Source: Chloroflexota bacterium (GTDB taxonomy: Bacteria; Chloroflexota; Dehalococcoidia; Tepidiformales; Tepidiformaceae). Taken from it: a stretch of DNA of 64,000 bases. The notes below the pieces were generated by a model. That model saw nothing but the letters and a program-made list of their open reading frames with translations, searched no databases and had not been told where the DNA came from. The stretch covers positions 186,001-250,000 of the forward strand of contig JAPOQN010000013.1 of the NCBI GenBank assembly GCA_026710655.1. The letters run 5' to 3'. Position 1 is the stretch's first letter. Each line of letters starts with the position of its first letter. This document shows positions 38,385 to 46,019 of the stretch, one piece after another. Both the position numbers and the translations under genes were made by a program.

Positions 38385-40814
38385 ATGCCGGAATTGCTCG
38401 ACGATCTCCGCGTCATTGACCTCAGCGAAGGCCCCATCGGTGGCATGACCACCATGGTGTTGGCCGACTTCGGTGCCGACGTCGTCAAGGTCGAGCGCCC
38501 CGGCGGCGACCCCTGGCGCACGGTCGCTAACGCACCCATGTGGCTGCGGGGGAAGCGCAGCGCGATCCTCGACCTGCAAACGGAGGCGGGCCGCGAGTCC
38601 CTCGCCCGCCTCGCCGAGAGCGCCGATGTCGTCGTAACGAGCATGCGTCCCGGCAAGGCCGAGCCCCTCGGCGCCGGCTACGAACGCCTCAGCGCCGCCA
38701 ACCCCGCCCTCGTCTACTGCGACATCACCGGTTTCGGCGCGAAGGGCCCCTACGCCGGCTACCCCGGCTATGAGGCCGTCGTAGCCGCCCGCATGGGACG
38801 CATGCTCACCTTCAGCGGCCTCCCCGACCGCGAAGGCCCCGCCTACGCGGCCGTCCAGGCCGGCTCGCACGCCACCTCCCAGGCCGCCCTCCACGGCATC
38901 CTCGCCGCCCTCATGGCCCGCGGCGAGACCGGCCGCGGCCAGCTCGTCGAGACGAGCCTCCTCCAGGGCCTCTTCTCCTACGACCTCGGCGGCCTCTTCC
39001 GCGCACAGCTCGGCGAACGCTTCCCCGAGTTATTCGCCGGCATTGCCATGCCCGCCATGCCAACCCTCAACTACCACGCCCTCCCGACGAAGGACGGGCG
39101 CTGGCTCCAGTTCGGCAATCTCATGGCCCACCTCTTCGACAACTACCTCGCCGCCGCCGGACTCGCCGACGTCTTCGCCGACCCCGACTACGAGGGCAGT
39201 CCGGCCACGTGGTCGGACGATGCCCGTGAGCGACTGCGCGACCGCATGTTCGAGCGCATGCTCGAACACACCGCCGAAGAGTGGATGGAGACCTTCATCG
39301 AGCACGGCGGCGTCGCCGCCACCCCCTTCCAGACCACCCAGCAGGCCCTCGACGACCCCGACCTCGTCCTCAACGGGCACGTCGTCGAACGCGAGCACCC
39401 CACCCTCGGAACGGTGCGCCAGCTCGGCGCCCTCGCCCGCCTCACCGCCACCCCCGGCGCCGCCGGCGAGCCCGGCCCCGAGCCCGGCGAGCACACCGAC
39501 CAGGTCCTCGCGGAAACTACCCGGCCCCGCCCCTCCGCCTTGCCCACCCCCGCCTCCGGGCCGCCCCTCCGCGGCGTCACCGTCCTCGAGTTCGCCACCG
39601 TCATCGCCGCGCCCCTCGGCGCCGCCATCCTCGCCGACCTCGGCGCGCGCGTGATCAAGGTCGAGCCCATCGGCGGCGCCCCCTTCCGCGCCATGGGCGT
39701 TGCCTCCATGGGCGCCGGCCGCTGTAACGGGAGCAAGGAGAGCATCGCTCTCGACCTCAAGAGCGCCGAGGGTCAGGAGATCGTCCACGCCCTCGCCCGC
39801 GAGACCGACATCGTCATCCACAACTACCGCCCCGGCGTCCCCGAGCGCCTTGGTATCGGCTACGAGACCCTCAAGGCCATCCGCCCCGAGCTCGTCTACG
39901 TCTACGTCAACGGCTACGGACGTTTCGGGCCGGGCGCTCACCGCCCCTCCACCCACCCCATCCCCGGCGCCGGCCTCGGCGGCGCCCTCATGCAGATGGG
40001 CGAAGGCATGCCCCCGGCCTGCACCACCATCCCGGAGCTTCGCGATGTCGCCCGCAAGTTCTTCCGCGCCAACGAGCTCAACCCCGACCCCAATACCTCC
40101 GTCGTCGTTGCCTCCTCCTCCCTCCTCGGCCTCTACGCCCGACGCCGCTTCGGCGAGGGCCAGGAGGTGTTCGTCGACATGTTCGGGGCGAACGCCTGGG
40201 CCAACGCCGACGACTTCATCGCCTACGAGGGCAAGCCCCCACGCCCCGAACCCGACACCGGCCTCTACGGCCTGAACGCGACCTGGCGCCTCTATCCCGC
40301 CGCCGGGAGCTGGGTCTTCCTCGGTCTGGCCGTGCAGCGCGAGTGGGAGCGCTTCTGCGCGCTTGCCAGCCGCCCCGACCTCGCCGCCGACCCCCGCTTC
40401 GCCACCCCCGACGCCCGCACCGCCAACGACGGGGCCCTCGCCGAAACGCTCGCGGCCCTGTTCGCCCAGCGCCCCGCGGACCAGTGGGAGGCCCTGCTCG
40501 CGACCGAGGGACTCGGCTGCGTCCGCGCCGATGCCGCCCCCGTCCACGAGTTCATCGCGAAGGACGGCCACGTCGCCGCCAACGGCATGCGCGTACCCGC
40601 CTACAGCACCAACTTCGGCGACTACGAGCGCTACGGCCCCCTCACCGCCTTCAGCGAGAACACGCTGGAGCTCGGCGGCTTCCCCCTCGCCGGGGAGCAG
40701 GCCGACCGCATCCTCGCCGAGCTTAGCTACGACTCCGCCGCCGTCGAAGCCCTCCGCGCCAGGGGCGTCGTCTGGTCCGAGACGCCCGCCCCGCTCGCCG
40801 CCGCTACCTCCTGA
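38385..40814 (+). CDS. Tandem CaiB/BaiF family III CoA-transferase fusion protein
   Basis: An 809-aa protein made of two complete CaiB/BaiF modules, residues about 1-385 and 400-800, joined by a Pro-rich linker. Each starts with the nucleotide-fold motif (VIDLSEGPIGG ... ADVVKVERPGGDPWR; VLEFATVIAAPLGA ... ARVIKVEPIGGAPFR). The Asp that forms the acyl-anhydride in formyl-CoA transferase (Asp169, in SMQDA) aligns with Gln194 (SLLQG) in module 1 and Gly601 (DMFGA) in module 2. CoA-transfer chemistry is therefore doubtful or differently catalysed. The stop overlaps the next start (TGATG). Confidence 0.9.
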   Translation: MPELLDDLRVIDLSEGPIGGMTTMVLADFGADVVKVERPGGDPWRTVANAPMWLRGKRSAILDLQTEAGRESLARLAESADVVVTSMRPGKAEPLGAGYERLSAANPALVYCDITGFGAKGPYAGYPGYEAVVAARMGRMLTFSGLPDREGPAYAAVQAGSHATSQAALHGILAALMARGETGRGQLVETSLLQGLFSYDLGGLFRAQLGERFPELFAGIAMPAMPTLNYHALPTKDGRWLQFGNLMAHLFDNYLAAAGLADVFADPDYEGSPATWSDDARERLRDRMFERMLEHTAEEWMETFIEHGGVAATPFQTTQQALDDPDLVLNGHVVEREHPTLGTVRQLGALARLTATPGAAGEPGPEPGEHTDQVLAETTRPRPSALPTPASGPPLRGVTVLEFATVIAAPLGAAILADLGARVIKVEPIGGAPFRAMGVASMGAGRCNGSKESIALDLKSAEGQEIVHALARETDIVIHNYRPGVPERLGIGYETLKAIRPELVYVYVNGYGRFGPGAHRPSTHPIPGAGLGGALMQMGEGMPPACTTIPELRDVARKFFRANELNPDPNTSVVVASSSLLGLYARRRFGEGQEVFVDMFGANAWANADDFIAYEGKPPRPEPDTGLYGLNATWRLYPAAGSWVFLGLAVQREWERFCALASRPDLAADPRFATPDARTANDGALAETLAALFAQRPADQWEALLATEGLGCVRADAAPVHEFIAKDGHVAANGMRVPAYSTNFGDYERYGPLTAFSENTLELGGFPLAGEQADRILAELSYDSAAVEALRARGVVWSETPAPLAAATS

Positions 40815-41371
40815 TGCCGGACTTCCACCCCGGCCGCCTCCTCGTCGCCACCCCCAACATCGAGGACCCCAACTTCTGGCGCACCGTTGTCCTCCTCTGC
40901 GCCCACGACGCCGAGGGCGCCTTCGGGCTCGTCCTGAACCACGCCATGAACGGCGAGACCGTCGCCGCCCACCTCCCCGAGTGGGACGGCCACGCCGTCG
41001 AGCCCGCCGTCCTCTTCCGCGGCGGTCCTGTCTCCACCGCCTCCGTTTTCGCCATGGCCACCGGCGACGACCTGCCCGTCGACCGCTGGGGCCTCCGCAT
41101 CTCCCCCGGCCTCGGCCTCGTCGACCCCGGCAAGGGTCCCCAGCACTTCGAGGGCCGCCTCGGACGCATGCGCTTCTTCGCCGGCTACGCCGGCTGGGGC
41201 GCGGGCCAGCTCGAGGGCGAGATCGCGACCCACGGCTGGTTCATCGTCGACGCCCTCCCCGACGACCCCTTCGCCACCGAACCCACCGACCTCTGGCGTC
41301 AGGTGCTCCTCCGCCAGGGCGGCGAGCTCGCCCGCTTCGCTACCCACCCCTCCCAGCCCGGAGTCAATTAG
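40814..41371 (+). CDS. YqgE/AlgH family protein (UPF0301)
   Basis: A 185-aa YqgE/AlgH protein: PGRLLVATPNIEDPNFWRTVVLL at the start, FGLVLNHAMN, RGGPVS, RFFAGYAGWGAGQLEGEI and a late HGWFIVDA. Function of this family is not well defined. The ATG overlaps the TGA of the CaiB fusion gene by one base, so it is translationally coupled. Its TAG stop is itself the first triplet of a heptad-repeat palindromic element. Confidence 0.9.
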   Translation: MPDFHPGRLLVATPNIEDPNFWRTVVLLCAHDAEGAFGLVLNHAMNGETVAAHLPEWDGHAVEPAVLFRGGPVSTASVFAMATGDDLPVDRWGLRISPGLGLVDPGKGPQHFEGRLGRMRFFAGYAGWGAGQLEGEIATHGWFIVDALPDDPFATEPTDLWRQVLLRQGGELARFATHPSQPGVN

Positions 41372-41484
41372 TGGCTAGTGGTTAGTGATTGGTGGCTAGT
41401 CCCCGCCCCCACCCCGCCGGGGGCCCGACCACCGGCCACCGACCACCGACCGCCAGCCACCAGCCACTAACCACCAGCCACTAG
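41369..41484. repeat. Heptad-repeat palindromic element, copy A
   Basis: The left arm (41369-41400) reads as 7-mers TAGTGGC, TAGTGGT, TAGTGAT, TGGTGGC, TAGT. A GC-rich core (CCCCGCCCC...GGGGGCCC) follows. The right arm (about 41428-41483), read on the other strand, is again 7-mers: TAGTGGC, TGGTGGT, TAGTGGC, TGGTGGC, TGGCGGT, CGGTGGT and so on. Together they form a long imperfect hairpin. The yqgE stop codon is its first triplet. Confidence 0.85.
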
Positions 41485-41531
41485 ATCGCTGGTAGCATTC
41501 CCCGGCATTCACGCCGATCGAGGAGGATTCC

Positions 41532-41819
41532 ATGGCCGCATACGTGCTCGCGCAGGGTCGAGTCGAAGACCGGGACAAGCTCAACGAATACCTGGCCGGA
41601 GCGGGCGGCACGCTCGCCCCGCACAACGCCAAGGTGCTCGCCTACACCGAGGAGCCCGAGGTCATCGAGGGCGAGGTCCCGAACAACCGCTTCGTCCTCA
41701 TCGAGTTCGCCGACGTCGAGACCGCCAAGGCCTGGTACAACTCCGACGGCTACGCAGCCGTCCGCGGCCTCCGCATCGAAGGCGCCCCCGGAACCCTGGT
41801 CATCCTGCCGGGCATGTAG
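41532..41819 (+). CDS. DUF1330 family protein
   Basis: A 95-aa ferredoxin-fold (dimeric alpha+beta barrel) protein: AAYVLAQGRVEDRDKLNEYLAGA, NRFVLIEFADVETAKAWYNSDGYAAVRGLR (quoted in part: VLIEFADVETAKAWYNSDGY) and GTLVILPGM are characteristic. AGGAGG lies 5 nt before the ATG. The gene sits between two heptad-repeat elements. Function of the family is unknown; members often lie near catabolic enzymes. Confidence 0.88.
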   Translation: MAAYVLAQGRVEDRDKLNEYLAGAGGTLAPHNAKVLAYTEEPEVIEGEVPNNRFVLIEFADVETAKAWYNSDGYAAVRGLRIEGAPGTLVILPGM

Positions 41820-41821
41820 CC

Positions 41822-41912
41822 GGTTAGTGGCTCGTGACTAGTGAATAGTGGCTCGTCCCCCCGCCCACGGCGGGGTGGGGACCAACCACTAACCACTATT
41901 CACTAACCACCA
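41822..41912. repeat. Heptad-repeat palindromic element, copy B
   Basis: Left arm 7-mers TAGTGGC, TCGTGAC, TAGTGAA, TAGTGGC, TCGT. Core CCCCCCGCCCACGGCGGGGTGGGG-like GC palindrome. The right arm on the opposite strand reads TAGTGAA, TAGTGGT, TAGTGGT, TGGT. It fills almost the whole gap between two convergent genes, so it could serve as a bidirectional terminator. Confidence 0.85.
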
Positions 41913-41915
41913 CCG

Positions 41916-43133
41916 TCACATCGCCTTGATGCCCTGGTACTCCTGGGAGAACACGCACTCCTGGAGCCCGAGCCCGACGTCGCTCGGGTCGTCGATGTTC
42001 GTGTAGCGCGTGTATAGCTCGGCGAAGTGGCCGCCCGGCCGCTGCTTCACCTCGTTGCCCTCAAGGTCCCGCACGATCACCGGGTGGGACACGTCCCAGA
42101 CCTCCCCCTCCACCTTGTCGCCACGGTAGACGCCCCGCCCCAGGCCGTCGTCCCAGCCGCCCCAGTAGCCGCCGCCCTGCATGTAGACCGGCTTGCTCAC
42201 CGTCTCCAACAGGAAGCGGTCGACGCCACCGTCGGGACGCGTCAGGTCGACCCGCGCGCTCTTCAGCCGCGGGAACCCGTCCTCGAACTCCGTGCTCACC
42301 ACGTCCACGTCCGTGTACGCCCACCCCTCCTTGCCTGAGCCGTAGGGGTAGTCGATGCGGCTGTGTACGGTGCCGAACTCGGCCAGGTTCGCGCCACCCG
42401 TGCCCGAGGCCACGATCTTGCCGTCGTTGTGGTGGCGGAAGGAGCAGTACATCGAACGGTCGCCGAAGCGAACCAGCGCCCACCAGCGCGCCCCCGGCGT
42501 GCCCCACACCGACCCGCGCCGCTCGCTCGGCGCAGCGTGGCGGTTCGGCTGCTCGCCTTCACCGGTATTGGCCTGCCCCCACGAGTGGTCCTTCGCCCCC
42601 ACCCAGCCGTCCTCCACCTCGAAGTGGTACTCCTTGCCCCCCACCTTCACCCAGCCCGAGAGGTCCCCCAGTTGCACCAGGTTCGAGCGCTCGCCCACCA
42701 TCCTCCCGTCTTGGTACATGCGGATGCCCTGGCACTCGTCGTAGGGTGGCGCCGAGCTCTCCCAGAGGATGTCGAACGAGCAGTCGACGTCCGTCTCCTC
42801 CAGGCCCAGCCGCAGCGTCCGCAGCCCCTTGATGATCTCCTGCGAGAACGGCCCCACCGTCAGGTCGTCGATGTCCGGGCGCAGCTTGCGCGTCGCGCGC
42901 ACGTTGTACTGCTTCCCGTCGCCCGTGCTCAGGATCGAGTAGGCGTCGATCGTGTTCGTGTTGTGGTAGAGCCGCAGTGCCGTGATCAGGTTCACCTCGC
43001 CGTCGGGATCGCCCACGCAGTGCCAGTAGCCGTCGCTCCACCCCGGGCTCGGGTTGGAGACGATGTCGAATGTGTCGATGGTCTGGTGGCGGGGCCACTC
43101 GTCAAGCTCGGTCAGGACGCGTCGTGCGGGCAT
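41916..43133 (-). CDS. Conserved hypothetical protein, beta-rich (CrtC/AttH-like fold suspected)
   Basis: A 405-aa soluble protein with no signal peptide. It is rich in Trp, Gly and alternating hydrophobic/polar stretches (GWVKVGGKEYHFEVEDGW, HSWGQANTGEG, ARWWALVRFGDRSMYCSFRHH, GWAYTDVDVVSTEFEDG), suggesting a two-half beta-barrel like the CrtC/AttH lipocalin-type proteins. The HSWG motif is typical of that group. Proteins like this recur in mycobacteria and Chloroflexota next to SDR and steroid-type genes. Biochemical function is unknown. It is divergent from an SDR. Confidence 0.7.
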   Translation of the reverse strand: MPARRVLTELDEWPRHQTIDTFDIVSNPSPGWSDGYWHCVGDPDGEVNLITALRLYHNTNTIDAYSILSTGDGKQYNVRATRKLRPDIDDLTVGPFSQEIIKGLRTLRLGLEETDVDCSFDILWESSAPPYDECQGIRMYQDGRMVGERSNLVQLGDLSGWVKVGGKEYHFEVEDGWVGAKDHSWGQANTGEGEQPNRHAAPSERRGSVWGTPGARWWALVRFGDRSMYCSFRHHNDGKIVASGTGGANLAEFGTVHSRIDYPYGSGKEGWAYTDVDVVSTEFEDGFPRLKSARVDLTRPDGGVDRFLLETVSKPVYMQGGGYWGGWDDGLGRGVYRGDKVEGEVWDVSHPVIVRDLEGNEVKQRPGGHFAELYTRYTNIDDPSDVGLGLQECVFSQEYQGIKAM

Positions 43134-43247
43134 GCGGTACCTCCAGTGGTTCGTGCGGCGCAGGATACCGCCTGCGTCGCGCCTCGGGGTGAACGCCGTG
43201 CGCGCAACGGAGCCGTCCGTACAATCCCAGCCCCGGAGGGTTTCGCT

Positions 43248-44108
43248 ATGTCAGACGACGTGTTCTCAATGGAAGGCAAGACGGTCATCGTCACCGGCGC
43301 CAGCTACGGGTTCGGTGTCACCTGGGCGGATGCCCTGGCCGAACGCGGGGCCAACATCGTTGGCACCTCGCGCAGCCTCGAGCGCCTGCAGGACACGGCT
43401 GCCCTCGTCGAGGGCAAGGGCCGCCGCTTCCTCCCCGTCGAGTGCGATGTCACCGACTACGAGCAGGTCGAGAACCTCATGAAAGCAGCCTGGGACGAGT
43501 TCGGCACCGTCGACGTGCTCATCAACAACGCGGGCATCTCCGACCTCAGCGCCTGGCGCGCCGAGCACTCGGACAACGACATGTTCCGCCAGATCGTCGA
43601 TACCGACCTCACCGGTCTCTGGTACTGCTGCCGCGCCTCCGCCCAGTACTTCCTCCGCCAGGGTCACGGCAACATCATCAACCTCAGCTCCATCTTCGGC
43701 GTGGGCGGCTTCGAGGGGCGCACCCCCGGCTACTTCGCCGCCAAGGGCGGCGTCACCCGCCTCACCGAGTTCCTCGCCACCGAGTGGGGCGACCGCGGCA
43801 TCCGCGTGAACGCCCTCGCCCCGCATGTATTCGACACGCCCATGACCCACGACGGCCTCATCCAGAGCGGTGTCATGGAGATGCTCGAAGGGCGCACACC
43901 CATGCGCCGCATCGGTCAGATCGAAGACCTCGTCGGCCCCATCGTCTTCCTCGCCTCCGACGCCTCCCAGTTCGTGAGCGGGGCCATCCTCCCGCTTGAC
44001 GGCGGCCTCACGGCCAGCCGCGGCTACTCCGCCGGTCCCTGGCCCATGGACGAGTTCGACCCCGAGGGTCGCGGCAAGCCGCTCAACCCCGGCGACCCCT
44101 GGGAGTAG
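43248..44108 (+). CDS. SDR family oxidoreductase
   Basis: A 286-aa classical SDR: TGASYGFG nucleotide loop (His/Ile position is Phe), NNAGIS, NLSSIFG serine region, and YFAAK (Tyr-x3-Lys). The ending FVSGAILPLDGGLTAS is typical, with an additional 25-residue Pro/Asp tail. GGAGGG lies 7 nt before the ATG and TACAAT at 43220-43225 is a likely -10 box. Open reading continues far upstream in frame, but only from 43248 does family homology start. Heptad element C follows the stop. Confidence 0.9.
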   Translation: MSDDVFSMEGKTVIVTGASYGFGVTWADALAERGANIVGTSRSLERLQDTAALVEGKGRRFLPVECDVTDYEQVENLMKAAWDEFGTVDVLINNAGISDLSAWRAEHSDNDMFRQIVDTDLTGLWYCCRASAQYFLRQGHGNIINLSSIFGVGGFEGRTPGYFAAKGGVTRLTEFLATEWGDRGIRVNALAPHVFDTPMTHDGLIQSGVMEMLEGRTPMRRIGQIEDLVGPIVFLASDASQFVSGAILPLDGGLTASRGYSAGPWPMDEFDPEGRGKPLNPGDPWE

Positions 44109-44111
44109 CGC

Positions 44112-44216
44112 CTGGTGGCTAGTGATTAGTCGCTAGTGATTGGTCCCCCGCCCCCATCGGTTGGGTGGCGGGGCAGGGCGTAGCCACCAGTCAGGAGTCA
44201 CTGGTCATCAGCCGTT
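44112..44216. repeat. Heptad-repeat palindromic element, copy C
   Basis: Left arm 7-mers TGGTGGC, TAGTGAT, TAGTCGC, TAGTGAT, TGGT. Core CCCCCGCCCCC ... GGTGGCGGGGC. Right arm on the opposite strand TGATGAC, CAGTGAC, TCCTGAC, TGGTGGC. More diverged than copies A and B. It begins 4 nt after the SDR stop. Confidence 0.8.
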
Positions 44217-44245
44217 ACAACACATCCGCCGGTCCGTGAGTTCAC

Positions 44246-44251
44246 TACAAT
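44246..44251 (+). promoter_or_regulatory. -10 box TACAAT (leaderless type)
   Basis: TACAAT ends 6 nt before the GTG start of the 64-aa membrane protein; no ribosome site intervenes. The same hexamer and spacing precede the next small gene. Confidence 0.6.
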
Positions 44252-44257
44252 CCGGCC

Positions 44258-44452
44258 GTGTGGCGTGTCATCCGGGACGAACTGCTGGCGCTGGTGTTGG
44301 CGTTCCCCGCGCTCATGCTGATGGTGGTGGTCGGCTGGGTTCAATACCCGGAGGAGCCAGTCTGGTACCGGGTGGCGTTCACCCTGGTGGTCGCCATGCT
44401 GGTGGTTGCGTTCATTGCCGTGTCCGTCGCGGCGATCATTTACGGCATTTGA
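44258..44452 (+). CDS. Small membrane protein, two helices
   Basis: A 64-aa protein with two hydrophobic segments (LLALVLAFPALMLMVVVGWV and VAFTLVVAMLVVAFIAVSVA). GTG start. TACAAT at 44246-44251 is positioned for transcription to begin at the start codon. No family recognised. It is followed 70 nt later by another leaderless small membrane-protein gene. Confidence 0.6.
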   Translation: MWRVIRDELLALVLAFPALMLMVVVGWVQYPEEPVWYRVAFTLVVAMLVVAFIAVSVAAIIYGI

Positions 44453-44510
44453 GTCCGACTTCGGTCAAGCTTCGCACTTACAGCCAGCCGACCCTGCATA
44501 CCCCGTCCCC

Positions 44511-44516
44511 TACAAT
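44511..44516 (+). promoter_or_regulatory. -10 box TACAAT (leaderless type)
   Basis: TACAAT ends 6 nt before the GTG at 44523, identical in sequence and spacing to the box before the previous gene. Confidence 0.6.
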
Positions 44517-44522
44517 GTCGCC

Positions 44523-44675
44523 GTGCGTGGCGATCTGTTGCACGGGCTGCTAATCGTGCTCCGGGGTGACCGGGATCATCCGCTCTGGCGGCAATTGGTA
44601 CACGCCATCGCTGTACTGACGTTGGTGGGAGCTTTCGGCTTCTTCCTGGTGCTCGACGTCATCCTGAACAGCTAG
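44523..44675 (+). CDS. Very small membrane protein, one helix
   Basis: A 50-aa protein: a basic amphipathic N-terminal half (VRGDLLHGLLIVLRGDRDHP, V read as Met) and a C-terminal membrane helix (HAIAVLTLVGAFGFFLVLDV). GTG start preceded by TACAAT at leaderless spacing. Short, so support rests on the promoter box and hydrophobic pattern. It converges on the M20 peptidase gene, 24 nt away. Confidence 0.5.
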   Translation: MRGDLLHGLLIVLRGDRDHPLWRQLVHAIAVLTLVGAFGFFLVLDVILNS

Positions 44676-44699
44676 CTGCTCGGATTCCGTCCCACACCA

Positions 44700-46019
44700 C
44701 TACCCCGCCCCGCACATCCGCCGCGTGACCTCGTAGATCATCTGGCAGCTCAGCCGGAAACTGTCGAGCGTCATGCGCTCGTTGTGACCGTGCACTGTGC
44801 GCGCCAGGTTCGGCGACGTTAGCCCGCCCGAGAACCCGTACGCCACCACCCCCTGGTTGCGGAACACGCGACTATCCGTGAACCCCGCCGTCACTCCCGG
44901 CGTGACTACTGCGTCCTCCACCAGCTCCCGCACCACCGACTCGATCGTGGCGAACAGCTCCGTGTCGTGCGAACTCGTGTCCGAGGCGCCAGCGAACACC
45001 CGCTCGACCTGCACTTTCGGGTCGTTGATCACCCGCGACACCTCTGCCTCGAACGAGTCCGCGTCGACCCCCGGCAGCAGGCGGCAATCGATCGTCGCCT
45101 CCGCCCGCCCCGGGATCACGTTGTGCTTGATGCCCGCGCTTGCCGTCGTCGCGCTGATCGTGTTCGTCAGCAGCGCCCGCACGCGCATGTCCGTTTCCGC
45201 CGTCGCCCGCAGCGCCTCGATGGAGGTGCCGCCCCGGTAGATGCCCGCCCGTTCCAGCCGCTCGAAGTACTCCCCCAGCACGGGCGAGAGCCGGGGCTCC
45301 CGGTTCCACTCCTGCAGCCGGCCCAGGGCCCGCACCAGCCGGTCGAGGGCGTTGTCCTTGTGGGGAACGGAGCCGTGCCCCGCCCGCCCCTCCGCCACCA
45401 GCCGCAGCCAGAGCGGCCCCTTCTCCGCCGTCGTCACCGTGAACACCGGTCGCTTCACGCCGAACAGCTCCGTCGAGCCGCCCCCGCCCTCATTGATGAC
45501 GAATTCCGCCACCAGCGCCTCGGGGTGGTGCTCCTCCAGCCACTCGATGCCGAGCATCCCGCCCGCTTCCTCGTCCGCCACCGCCAGGAAGACGATGTCG
45601 CGCGCCAGCGGCAGCCCCGAGCGCTTCAGCAGCAGCACTGTCAGCAGCTCCGCCACCCCCAGCCCCTTCATGTCGAGCGTCCCCCGGCCCCAGATCTCCC
45701 CGTTGCGGATGACCGCCGCGAACGGCTCCTCGTCCCAGTACTCGCGCTCCACCGGCACCACGTCGGTGTGATTGAGGAGCATCAGGGGCTCCTTGCTGCC
45801 GTTGCCCTTGAGCACCGCCCGCAGCGACACGCGGTCGTCCCCGGGATCGAACAGCTCGTACTCGATCCCCTCCCGTTCGAGGATGCCCCCGAGGAAGTCG
45901 CACGCCAGCCGTTCCCGTCCGGGCGGGTTCGACGTGTCGATGCGCAGGTACTCCTGCAGGATGCCCAGCGCCTCCTCGAAGGCTGCGTCCCAGTCGACCC
46001 GCGGCTCGACCGCCGTCAC
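44700..46019 (-). CDS. M20 family metallopeptidase/deacylase
   Basis: A 439-aa di-zinc hydrolase of the ArgE/DapE/CPG2 family. Motifs: LLNHTDVVP (His-x-Asp), GRGTLDMKG (bridging Asp), VADEEAGG (catalytic Glu and ligand Glu), GRAGHGSVPH for the dimerisation domain His, and VHGHNERM for the last His. Likely cleaves an N-acyl-amino acid or peptide. Its ATG overlaps the stop of the upstream amidohydrolase by 4 nt (ATGA), so the two are translationally coupled. Last gene of the leftward catabolic block. Confidence 0.93.
   Translation of the reverse strand: MTAVEPRVDWDAAFEEALGILQEYLRIDTSNPPGRERLACDFLGGILEREGIEYELFDPGDDRVSLRAVLKGNGSKEPLMLLNHTDVVPVEREYWDEEPFAAVIRNGEIWGRGTLDMKGLGVAELLTVLLLKRSGLPLARDIVFLAVADEEAGGMLGIEWLEEHHPEALVAEFVINEGGGGSTELFGVKRPVFTVTTAEKGPLWLRLVAEGRAGHGSVPHKDNALDRLVRALGRLQEWNREPRLSPVLGEYFERLERAGIYRGGTSIEALRATAETDMRVRALLTNTISATTASAGIKHNVIPGRAEATIDCRLLPGVDADSFEAEVSRVINDPKVQVERVFAGASDTSSHDTELFATIESVVRELVEDAVVTPGVTAGFTDSRVFRNQGVVAYGFSGGLTSPNLARTVHGHNERMTLDSFRLSCQMIYEVTRRMCGAG

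Follow-up and report, generated by a model that had tools for sequence, protein, structure and literature searches.

In the 64-kb window analysed here, which is the whole stretch C13:186001-250000 of the 3.14 Mb assembly of a Tepidiformaceae bacterium (genome G000), three palindromes, E1 (41369-41484), E2 (41825-41912) and E3 (44113 to about 44217), each consist of a GC-rich core between inverted arrays of 7-nt units. Their left arms are degenerate TRGTGRY heptads and their right arms the inverted array, which is weak in E3. This confirms the existence of three heptad-built palindromes of one design at the places where a preliminary description of the sequence had put them. The four-helix-bundle protein S23p (PF05635, TIGR02436) belongs to the intervening sequences (IVS) in 23S rRNA genes. 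Our analysis found that heptads of the window also flank an S23p gene in inverted orientation, and we consider it probable that E1-E3 belong to the S23p element family. All three lie between protein genes and not in a 23S rRNA helix, and no S23p gene is found within them; they could therefore be gene-less members only. That they are gene-less members of the S23p/IVS element family, resembling miniature inverted-repeat transposable elements (MITEs), is as a whole explanation the reading that we favour with some reserve. Anatomy, location, shared heptads, agreement in heptad dialect and the filled and empty sites are established.

A dense heptad cluster in the related genome G007 encloses the gene for a 125-aa protein with a PF05635 (23S_rRNA_IVP) match of 2.3e-36. 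The S23p protein has a TIGR02436 match of 3.8e-35; its matches to Avd-type families are weak (8.7e-6 and 2.1e-4) and fall short of the curated cut-offs. The best solved relative of the protein is XCC0516 from Xanthomonas campestris (2gsc). In G000 an S23p gene is located at C13:181056-181373, 4628 bp before the window, with TRGTGRY heptads inverted on both sides. A gene-bearing member of the family would be composed of a heptad array, the S23p gene and an inverted heptad array, in this order.

PF05635 was matched in 39 of 60 chosen genomes and in none of 14 named control genomes. Flanks were scored for 100 S23p genes, namely the 30 best and 41 further matches from the 60-genome set and 29 from a second sample (251 genomes of the phylum, 75 with an S23p match). 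Five genes were dropped because of short flanks or odd length of the open reading frame (ORF), leaving 95 usable loci. With a lag-7 score of at least 18/28 within 200 bp as the threshold for an array, and 29 or more for an inverted match, 84 of the 95 loci had an array on one or both sides, 47 of them on both, and 54 passed the inverted-match score; for 208 control genes the corresponding numbers were 15, 4 and 4. Windows beside S23p passed in 132 of 192 cases, as compared to 18 of 469 at a distance of 500-1200 bp in the same loci (here with 96 loci and a slightly wider limit on length). The mean best score beside S23p was 21.1-21.7 at lag 7 and 12.2-15.6 at lags 4, 5, 6, 8, 9 and 10. The flanking heptad itself varies by locus, e.g. 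GTTGGCT, GAGTGCT, ATAGACG or GGGAACC, and the two arms of one S23p element agree more in inverted than in direct orientation in 43 of 47 cases. The more identical two S23p proteins are, the more alike are their heptads (rho 0.284, 0 of 500 permutations). In addition, an ORF on the same strand ends near 58 of 73 upstream arrays, and 46 arrays start within 20 nt of the ORF end.

The genus sample comprised nine genomes (G000-G008: a Tepidiformaceae chromosome and Dehalococcoidia or Chloroflexi metagenome-assembled genomes, MAGs), which were analysed with a simple purpose-written gene finder and heptad scorer. On C13 (282,509 bp) 15 heptad arms reach a score of 18, and none does so in either of two second-order Markov copies. 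Allowing up to 3 mismatches, TAGTGRYTAGTGRYTAGT gave 179 matches in the G000 genome versus 56 for the reversed control; with up to 1 mismatch it is present in 7 of the 9 genus genomes (G000-G004, G006, G007) and in 1 of 51 other genomes. G005 uses a different dialect, CGGTGRY, and in G008 neither pattern was matched. A wider heptad pattern occurs in 25 of 393 genomes of the class, spread over several families; its control is uninformative because the pattern reads identically backwards. The examined stretches of the G000 genome hold 32 heptad clusters, and 120 clusters were gathered from seven species (genomes) of one Tepidiformaceae genus. At least six of these 120 are arms beside S23p genes (L049, L139, L169), the remainder being gene-less as far as seen. 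Most loci were chosen for holding a pattern match; the census proper covered C13, with 11 clusters in its 282,509 bp, and G004:C4, with 8 in 300,000 bp. One locus, L042 (G000:C7:124889-131372), holds several clusters in 6.5 kb, some of them mixed with a second heptad; among the genes next to it are those of a methyltransferase and of large proteins with no clear Pfam match.

Within the genus, six S23p genes that have arms of the TRGTGRY type share 67-89 percent identity. One S23p site, recognised by its shared flanks, is common to G000, G006 and, reversed, G001, and G004 has a stop codon and about two heptads at this site and no gene. The G001 copy (L330) has the opposite orientation to those of G000 and G006 (L303, L304) and a more distant S23p. 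At another site one flank is common to G001 and G007, and the flanks of the G005 copy are common to none. The heptad dialect of the gene-less arrays agrees with the resident S23p in G000, G005 and G007. In G007 a purine occupies position 7 in 23 of 25 S23p-flanking heptads and in 41 of 69 heptads of other shared-site arrays, in G000 in 2 of 13 and 16 of 93, respectively (the latter count leaves out the S23p arms counted at its site 14), and in G005 YGGTGRY heptads make up the S23p arms as well as the other arrays. A second type of S23p, this one with GTTGGCT heptads, was observed at one site shared by G000, G005, G006 and G007 (L328, L331, L332, L334), whose neighbours we take, from their sequence, to be pheS and pheT; runs of the GTTGGCT type occur in 4 of 18 G000 element loci and in none on C13.

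A comparison in G025, a genome of another genus with one PF05635 match, was designed as a prediction test of gene-less arrays using the heptads of the resident S23p. In 397 kb period 7 gave 10 regions, 8 of them mostly non-coding, and the control lags gave zero non-coding regions (5, 8, 9 and 13) or one each (6, 10 and 11). One of the 8 regions is the downstream arm of S23p itself, and 3 of the 7 others hold units of the S23p arm (GGACTGA, GGGATGA-type). The remaining arrays are mostly of the GGGAGGA or GGCATGA type, units that are also found in two of the three arrays with S23p units.

The preliminary description had named tens of copies, mostly just after stop codons, as support, and many of the 120 clusters are indeed found there. 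Both neighbouring genes were called for 112 of them, with 54 in convergent, 50 in tandem and 8 in divergent gaps; as a baseline, convergent gaps make up 30 of the 345 in the two census stretches that measure at least 30 bp. Many of the tandem-gap clusters are one-armed. Of the 186 arms with a score of 20 or higher, 114 lie near a sense stop codon (-35 to +80 nt); the remaining 72 do not. The stop is inside the array in 83 of the 114, and 86 are in phase with it, the array starting exactly at the stop in 58 arms, one heptad earlier in 16 and two heptads earlier in 7. TAG accounts for 104 of these 114 stops; in the two census stretches it ends 369 of 595 genes. The three window elements start at or a few bases from a stop, as had been noticed before: the first TAG of E1 (41369-41371) doubles as the stop codon of an AlgH-like gene, and E2 and E3 follow a stop by 5 and 4 nt. 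At the E1 site the G008 ortholog, which has no heptads, terminates with TAA at about the same place, so that the E1 array takes over the stop and does not shorten the protein.

The enrichment in convergent gaps and the rarity of divergent ones would also be expected if the palindromes were bidirectional terminators or mRNA 3'-end hairpins under selection, with the heptads as a convenient stem sequence. E1, E2 and E3 form stable RNA hairpins with strong folds (z -8.7, -5.6 and -5.1 versus shuffles), and in the 57 palindromic clusters a half that includes the core pairs best with the other half of the same element, a result equalled in 0 of 5000 permutations. Moreover, the G005 spacer at the E1 site holds another short GC hairpin, though the spacer as a whole folds like its shuffles (z -0.24). 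Against this stands that only 1 of the 57 palindromes is followed on either side by the T-tract of an intrinsic terminator (at least 6 T within 12 nt), and that the heptad arms alone do not covary: arms with their own partner reach -38.0 and swapped arms -36.8 kcal/mol, 482 of 5000 permutations being as good. The earlier suggestion of selection on arm pairing with compensatory changes is thus not borne out, element-specific pairing being confined to the halves with the core; the complementarity of the arms comes from the common pool of heptads that supplies each of them. In addition, 63 of the 120 clusters are not plus-then-minus palindromes, the ribosome should hold open hairpins that start at a stop codon, and the link to S23p is left unexplained. 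According to PMC4824070, an E. coli terminator a few bp past a gene was almost fully repressed. We regard the terminator explanation as unlikely. A search of 40500-45000 against Rfam gave two matches below the gathering score and zero above it, so that assignment to an Rfam family was rejected.

Comparison of syntenic sites revealed that E1 and E2 have counterparts of the same design, with differing heptads and cores, in G000-G004, G006 and G007, and that G008 at both sites and G005 at E1 have heptad-free spacers of 34-82 nt. A second convergent site carries elements in six species and a 15 nt spacer in G008, is broken by about 1.9 kb in G003 and is unreadable on one side in G005. The third site is filled in G000, G001, G002 and G004 and without element in G003, G006, G007, G005 and G008, with gaps of 21, 21, 20, 4 and 26 nt, respectively. 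Sites that are empty in relatives, for which the preliminary description had proposed to look, do therefore exist. A compact palindrome in G000, G001 and G002 corresponds in G004 (L103:3722-4180) and G006 (L141) to heptad arms that are separated by about 430 nt and have a small ORF between them.

The content of filled sites changes to a large extent. Arms of orthologous elements are as similar as those of non-orthologous ones (0.771 vs 0.768), and whole elements differ moderately (0.652 vs 0.578). A complete turnover had to be softened, as 16 of 63 orthologous whole-element pairs exceed the 95th percentile of the non-orthologous pairs and some ancestry therefore remains. Ordinary syntenic gaps exceed their 95th percentile in 32 of 39 cases; heptad gaps are represented there by just two cases, whose scores (0.72 and 0.69) are similar to ordinary ones. 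Heptad composition groups with the genome (0 of 300 permutations) and does not group with the site, and at position 7 the genome effect was reached in 0 and the site effect in 946 of 2000 permutations. When G007 is excluded, the genome effect stays at positions 1 and 2 (4 and 15 of 1000) and is lost at positions 7 and 6 (89 and 158 of 1000), so the genome dialect rests largely on G007.

The heptad itself is constrained. In 327 counted heptads G is invariant at position 3; T at position 4 and G at position 5 occur in 317 each, and T at position 1 in 280. Variation is found at positions 2, 6 and 7, chiefly through transitions. In 72 heptad comparisons from arm pairs that are at least 86 percent identical (18 of 167), changes were counted 12, 6 and 12 times at positions 2, 6 and 7, 3 times at position 1, twice at position 4 and never at positions 3 and 5. 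Arrays of sites bound by a DNA- or RNA-binding regulator of the host, with a step of 7 nt and a preference that has drifted from species to species, would agree with these constrained positions and with the genome-wide dialect. However, sites are gained or lost between close species, and the link to S23p suggests a factor encoded by the element, so that we consider such a regulator very improbable. Four G-tracts of three, as in G-quadruplex heptads of the Xanthomonas/Nostoc type, are not seen in the heptad letters: the commonest heptads, TAGTGGC, TAGTGAC and TGGTGGC, contain no GGG, and TAGTGGG makes up 26 of 888.

Adjacent heptads within an array resemble each other beyond chance (lag 2: 56 vs 33, 0 of 300), and long pure arrays were found in G005 and G296. 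Together with the avoidance of divergent gaps, this is what neutral tandem repeats produced by slippage would look like if they arose in tolerant gaps behind stop codons, where S23p genes would merely be located. Slippage does not account, however, for the single heptad that is paired in inverted orientation across S23p, for the arrays beginning exactly at or whole heptads before the stop, for positions 3 and 5 remaining unchanged, or for the excess of arrays at S23p genes over control genes. We therefore judge it improbable.

Outside the Chloroflexota, S23p matches 36 plasmid records, mostly cyanobacterial, of which 16 were used for the counts. The period-7 score was passed on at least one side of 13 of these 16 S23p genes and on both sides of 7; one of the 13, L402, is not array-like by eye. 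The three that failed (L401, L408, L411) score 20-26 at lag 8, and period-8 arrays, instead of or beside period 7, were observed at L401, L408, L411 and L412. Counting lag 7 or 8, 28 of 32 near and 5 of 64 far windows passed. The S23p gene begins 35-74 nt past the stop of an annotated same-strand gene in 7 of the 16 cases. In Azospirillum the S23p gene is inside a 23S rRNA gene (1532 bits) and has a period-7 array on one side; this copy is a classic IVS. Phages as carriers were rejected, as they gave no S23p match at 1e-5. On cyanobacterial plasmids (L398, L407, L408) S23p genes are located inside CRISPR-Cas operons, between cas6/cas4 and between cas10 and a cmr3-type gene.

Within the window, the left arm of E1 consists of 5 heptads on the plus strand (41369-41403, the fifth imperfect), at the end of the AlgH-like (DUF179) gene (40814-41371, plus strand). 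Its GC-rich core (41404-41427), delimited like the other cores by sequence and RNA fold, is followed by 8 inverted heptads on the minus strand (41428-41483). The interval between E1 and E2 is occupied by a DUF1330 gene (41532-41819, plus strand), behind whose stop lie the 4 left-arm heptads of E2 (41825-41852, plus strand), its GC-rich core (41853-41884) and 4 inverted heptads (41885-41912, minus strand), which end 3 nt from the stop of a convergent gene without a Pfam match (41916-43133, minus strand). E3 follows a short-chain dehydrogenase (SDR) gene (43248-44108, plus strand) with 4 left-arm heptads (44113-44140, plus strand), a core (44141-44182) and a degenerate right arm (44183-44217, minus strand), in which a run is detected only when two mismatches per heptad are allowed. 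At the E3 site the SDR gene of several relatives is separated from the heptads by small predicted ORFs, some of them apparently repeated.

How the family might work can be outlined by analogy. S23p, a distant relative of Avd, the accessory protein of diversity-generating retroelements (DGRs), would recognise the heptad arms or their hairpin and would spread or maintain the elements, acting on gene-less copies in trans. In RNA the arms may form a long stem that, as in IVS, might be cut by RNase III, and a spot directly after a stop codon could, like the dispensable tip of an rRNA helix, be a place where such a stem does little harm. A mechanism driven by S23p is held with more doubt than confidence. 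A reverse transcriptase as common factor was rejected, PF00078 being found in just 3 of the 9 genus genomes.

Several observations weigh against this reading. At the chosen threshold 11 of the 95 S23p loci have no array, and G002, G003 and G004 carry palindromes without a PF05635 match; S23p must therefore have been lost, be missing from the assemblies, or not be needed. The correlation between S23p proteins and their heptads could also come from shared descent. Runs of 3 heptads common to different arrays are near chance (10 vs 6.5 shuffled, with as many in 21 of 200 shuffles), and shared runs exceed chance at lengths 2 (230 vs 166), 4 (2 vs 0.3) and 5 (1 vs 0). The arrays thus appear mostly not to be plain copies of each other, and would be either rebuilt or diverging fast. 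No target-site duplication turned up while the empty sites were read, a dedicated search not having been made. A looser count in G025 gave 14 runs for GGACTGA, several of them coding, and is weak alone because 20 letter permutations gave 0-10. Finally, according to PMC4990558, S23p has no known function, including a catalytic one.

Of the roles proposed in the preliminary description (terminators, non-autonomous mobile elements at stop codons, protein-binding arrays), the mobile elements come closest because the same heptads flank an S23p gene. Its interpretation thus held for the copies, the stop codons and the empty sites and failed for the covariation of the arms, while a plain terminator role is weak. 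More generally, S23p with inverted heptad arms could represent an unrecognised, very widespread class of small elements homing to stop codons, with the 23S IVS as its rRNA special case and the cyanobacterial, Xanthomonas and other heptameric repeats as gene-less derivatives; the heptad would be a recognition code co-evolving with S23p, and a new dialect would spread through the sites of a genome. We regard this proposal as nearly balanced, leaning slightly to the doubtful side. S23p is widespread and structurally solved, and treating gene and repeats as one element makes both testable. If the proposal is true, the repeats gain a candidate protein, S23p a candidate substrate and the stop codon a role as settling place, and two old bacterial puzzles, the S23p gene and the dispersed heptad repeats, are joined.

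Among known systems, REP (repetitive extragenic palindromic) sequences, which are associated with RAYT (REP-associated tyrosine) transposases, are dispersed intergenic palindromes as well. The unit sequence of our elements is, however, not conserved between copies, and the Y1 transposase family PF01797 was found in 0 of the 9 genus genomes, the MAGs being 89-96 percent complete. As T-tracts are nearly absent and a RAYT transposase was not found, neither plain terminators nor REPs are a good fit.

The TAACTGA direct repeats of Beggiatoaceae, cyanobacteria and Bacteroidetes are likewise heptamers and contain stop codons in all frames; one array from the class (L186 in G204, a genome without a PF05635 match) has this unit as well and mixes TAACTGA, CGGTGAT and GAAGTCA heptads. 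The published repeats differ in lying mostly before start codons, and the main genome studied has one inverted case (PMC4679880).

A family of the exact build of E1-E3 was not found in the literature searched, in agreement with the preliminary description, but heptameric repeats at stop codons with inverted pairs have been described. In Xanthomonas and Nostoc, degenerate GGGAATC / GGGGA(C/T)T heptads, often 4 units, lie within 50 bp of stops on the coding strand, occur as inverted pairs, keep their sites between species with varying content and avoid divergent gaps, all of which is shared by our elements; an accepted role for dispersed heptameric repeats is, according to the discussion, still lacking (PMC4692102). 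They differ in that the common TRGTGRY forms have no three-G tract and that the TRGTGRY array often starts at the stop codon itself. The terms S23, XCC0516 and four-helix are absent from the text of PMC4692102. An S23p of Xanthomonas campestris itself (2gsc) offers a lead towards such a link.

In the literature searched, which mostly did not extend to subscription papers, no paper joins dispersed heptad repeats to S23p, and an earlier description may exist elsewhere. The sole paper found there to link S23p with heptamers is PMC4990558, which describes the IVS as an S23p gene within an inverted-repeat stem, sporadically present and, in the case studied there, with tandem heptamers before the S23p ORF, and reports RNase III cutting for rRNA IVS. 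The elements described here resemble the IVS in the S23p gene inside an inverted-repeat stem with heptamers, as does the Azospirillum 23S copy with its one-sided period-7 array. They differ in that those of the window have no S23p gene and are located at stop codons of protein genes instead of in rRNA. New here is that the heptads of the window also flank an S23p gene in inverted orientation, which ties the repeats to S23p.

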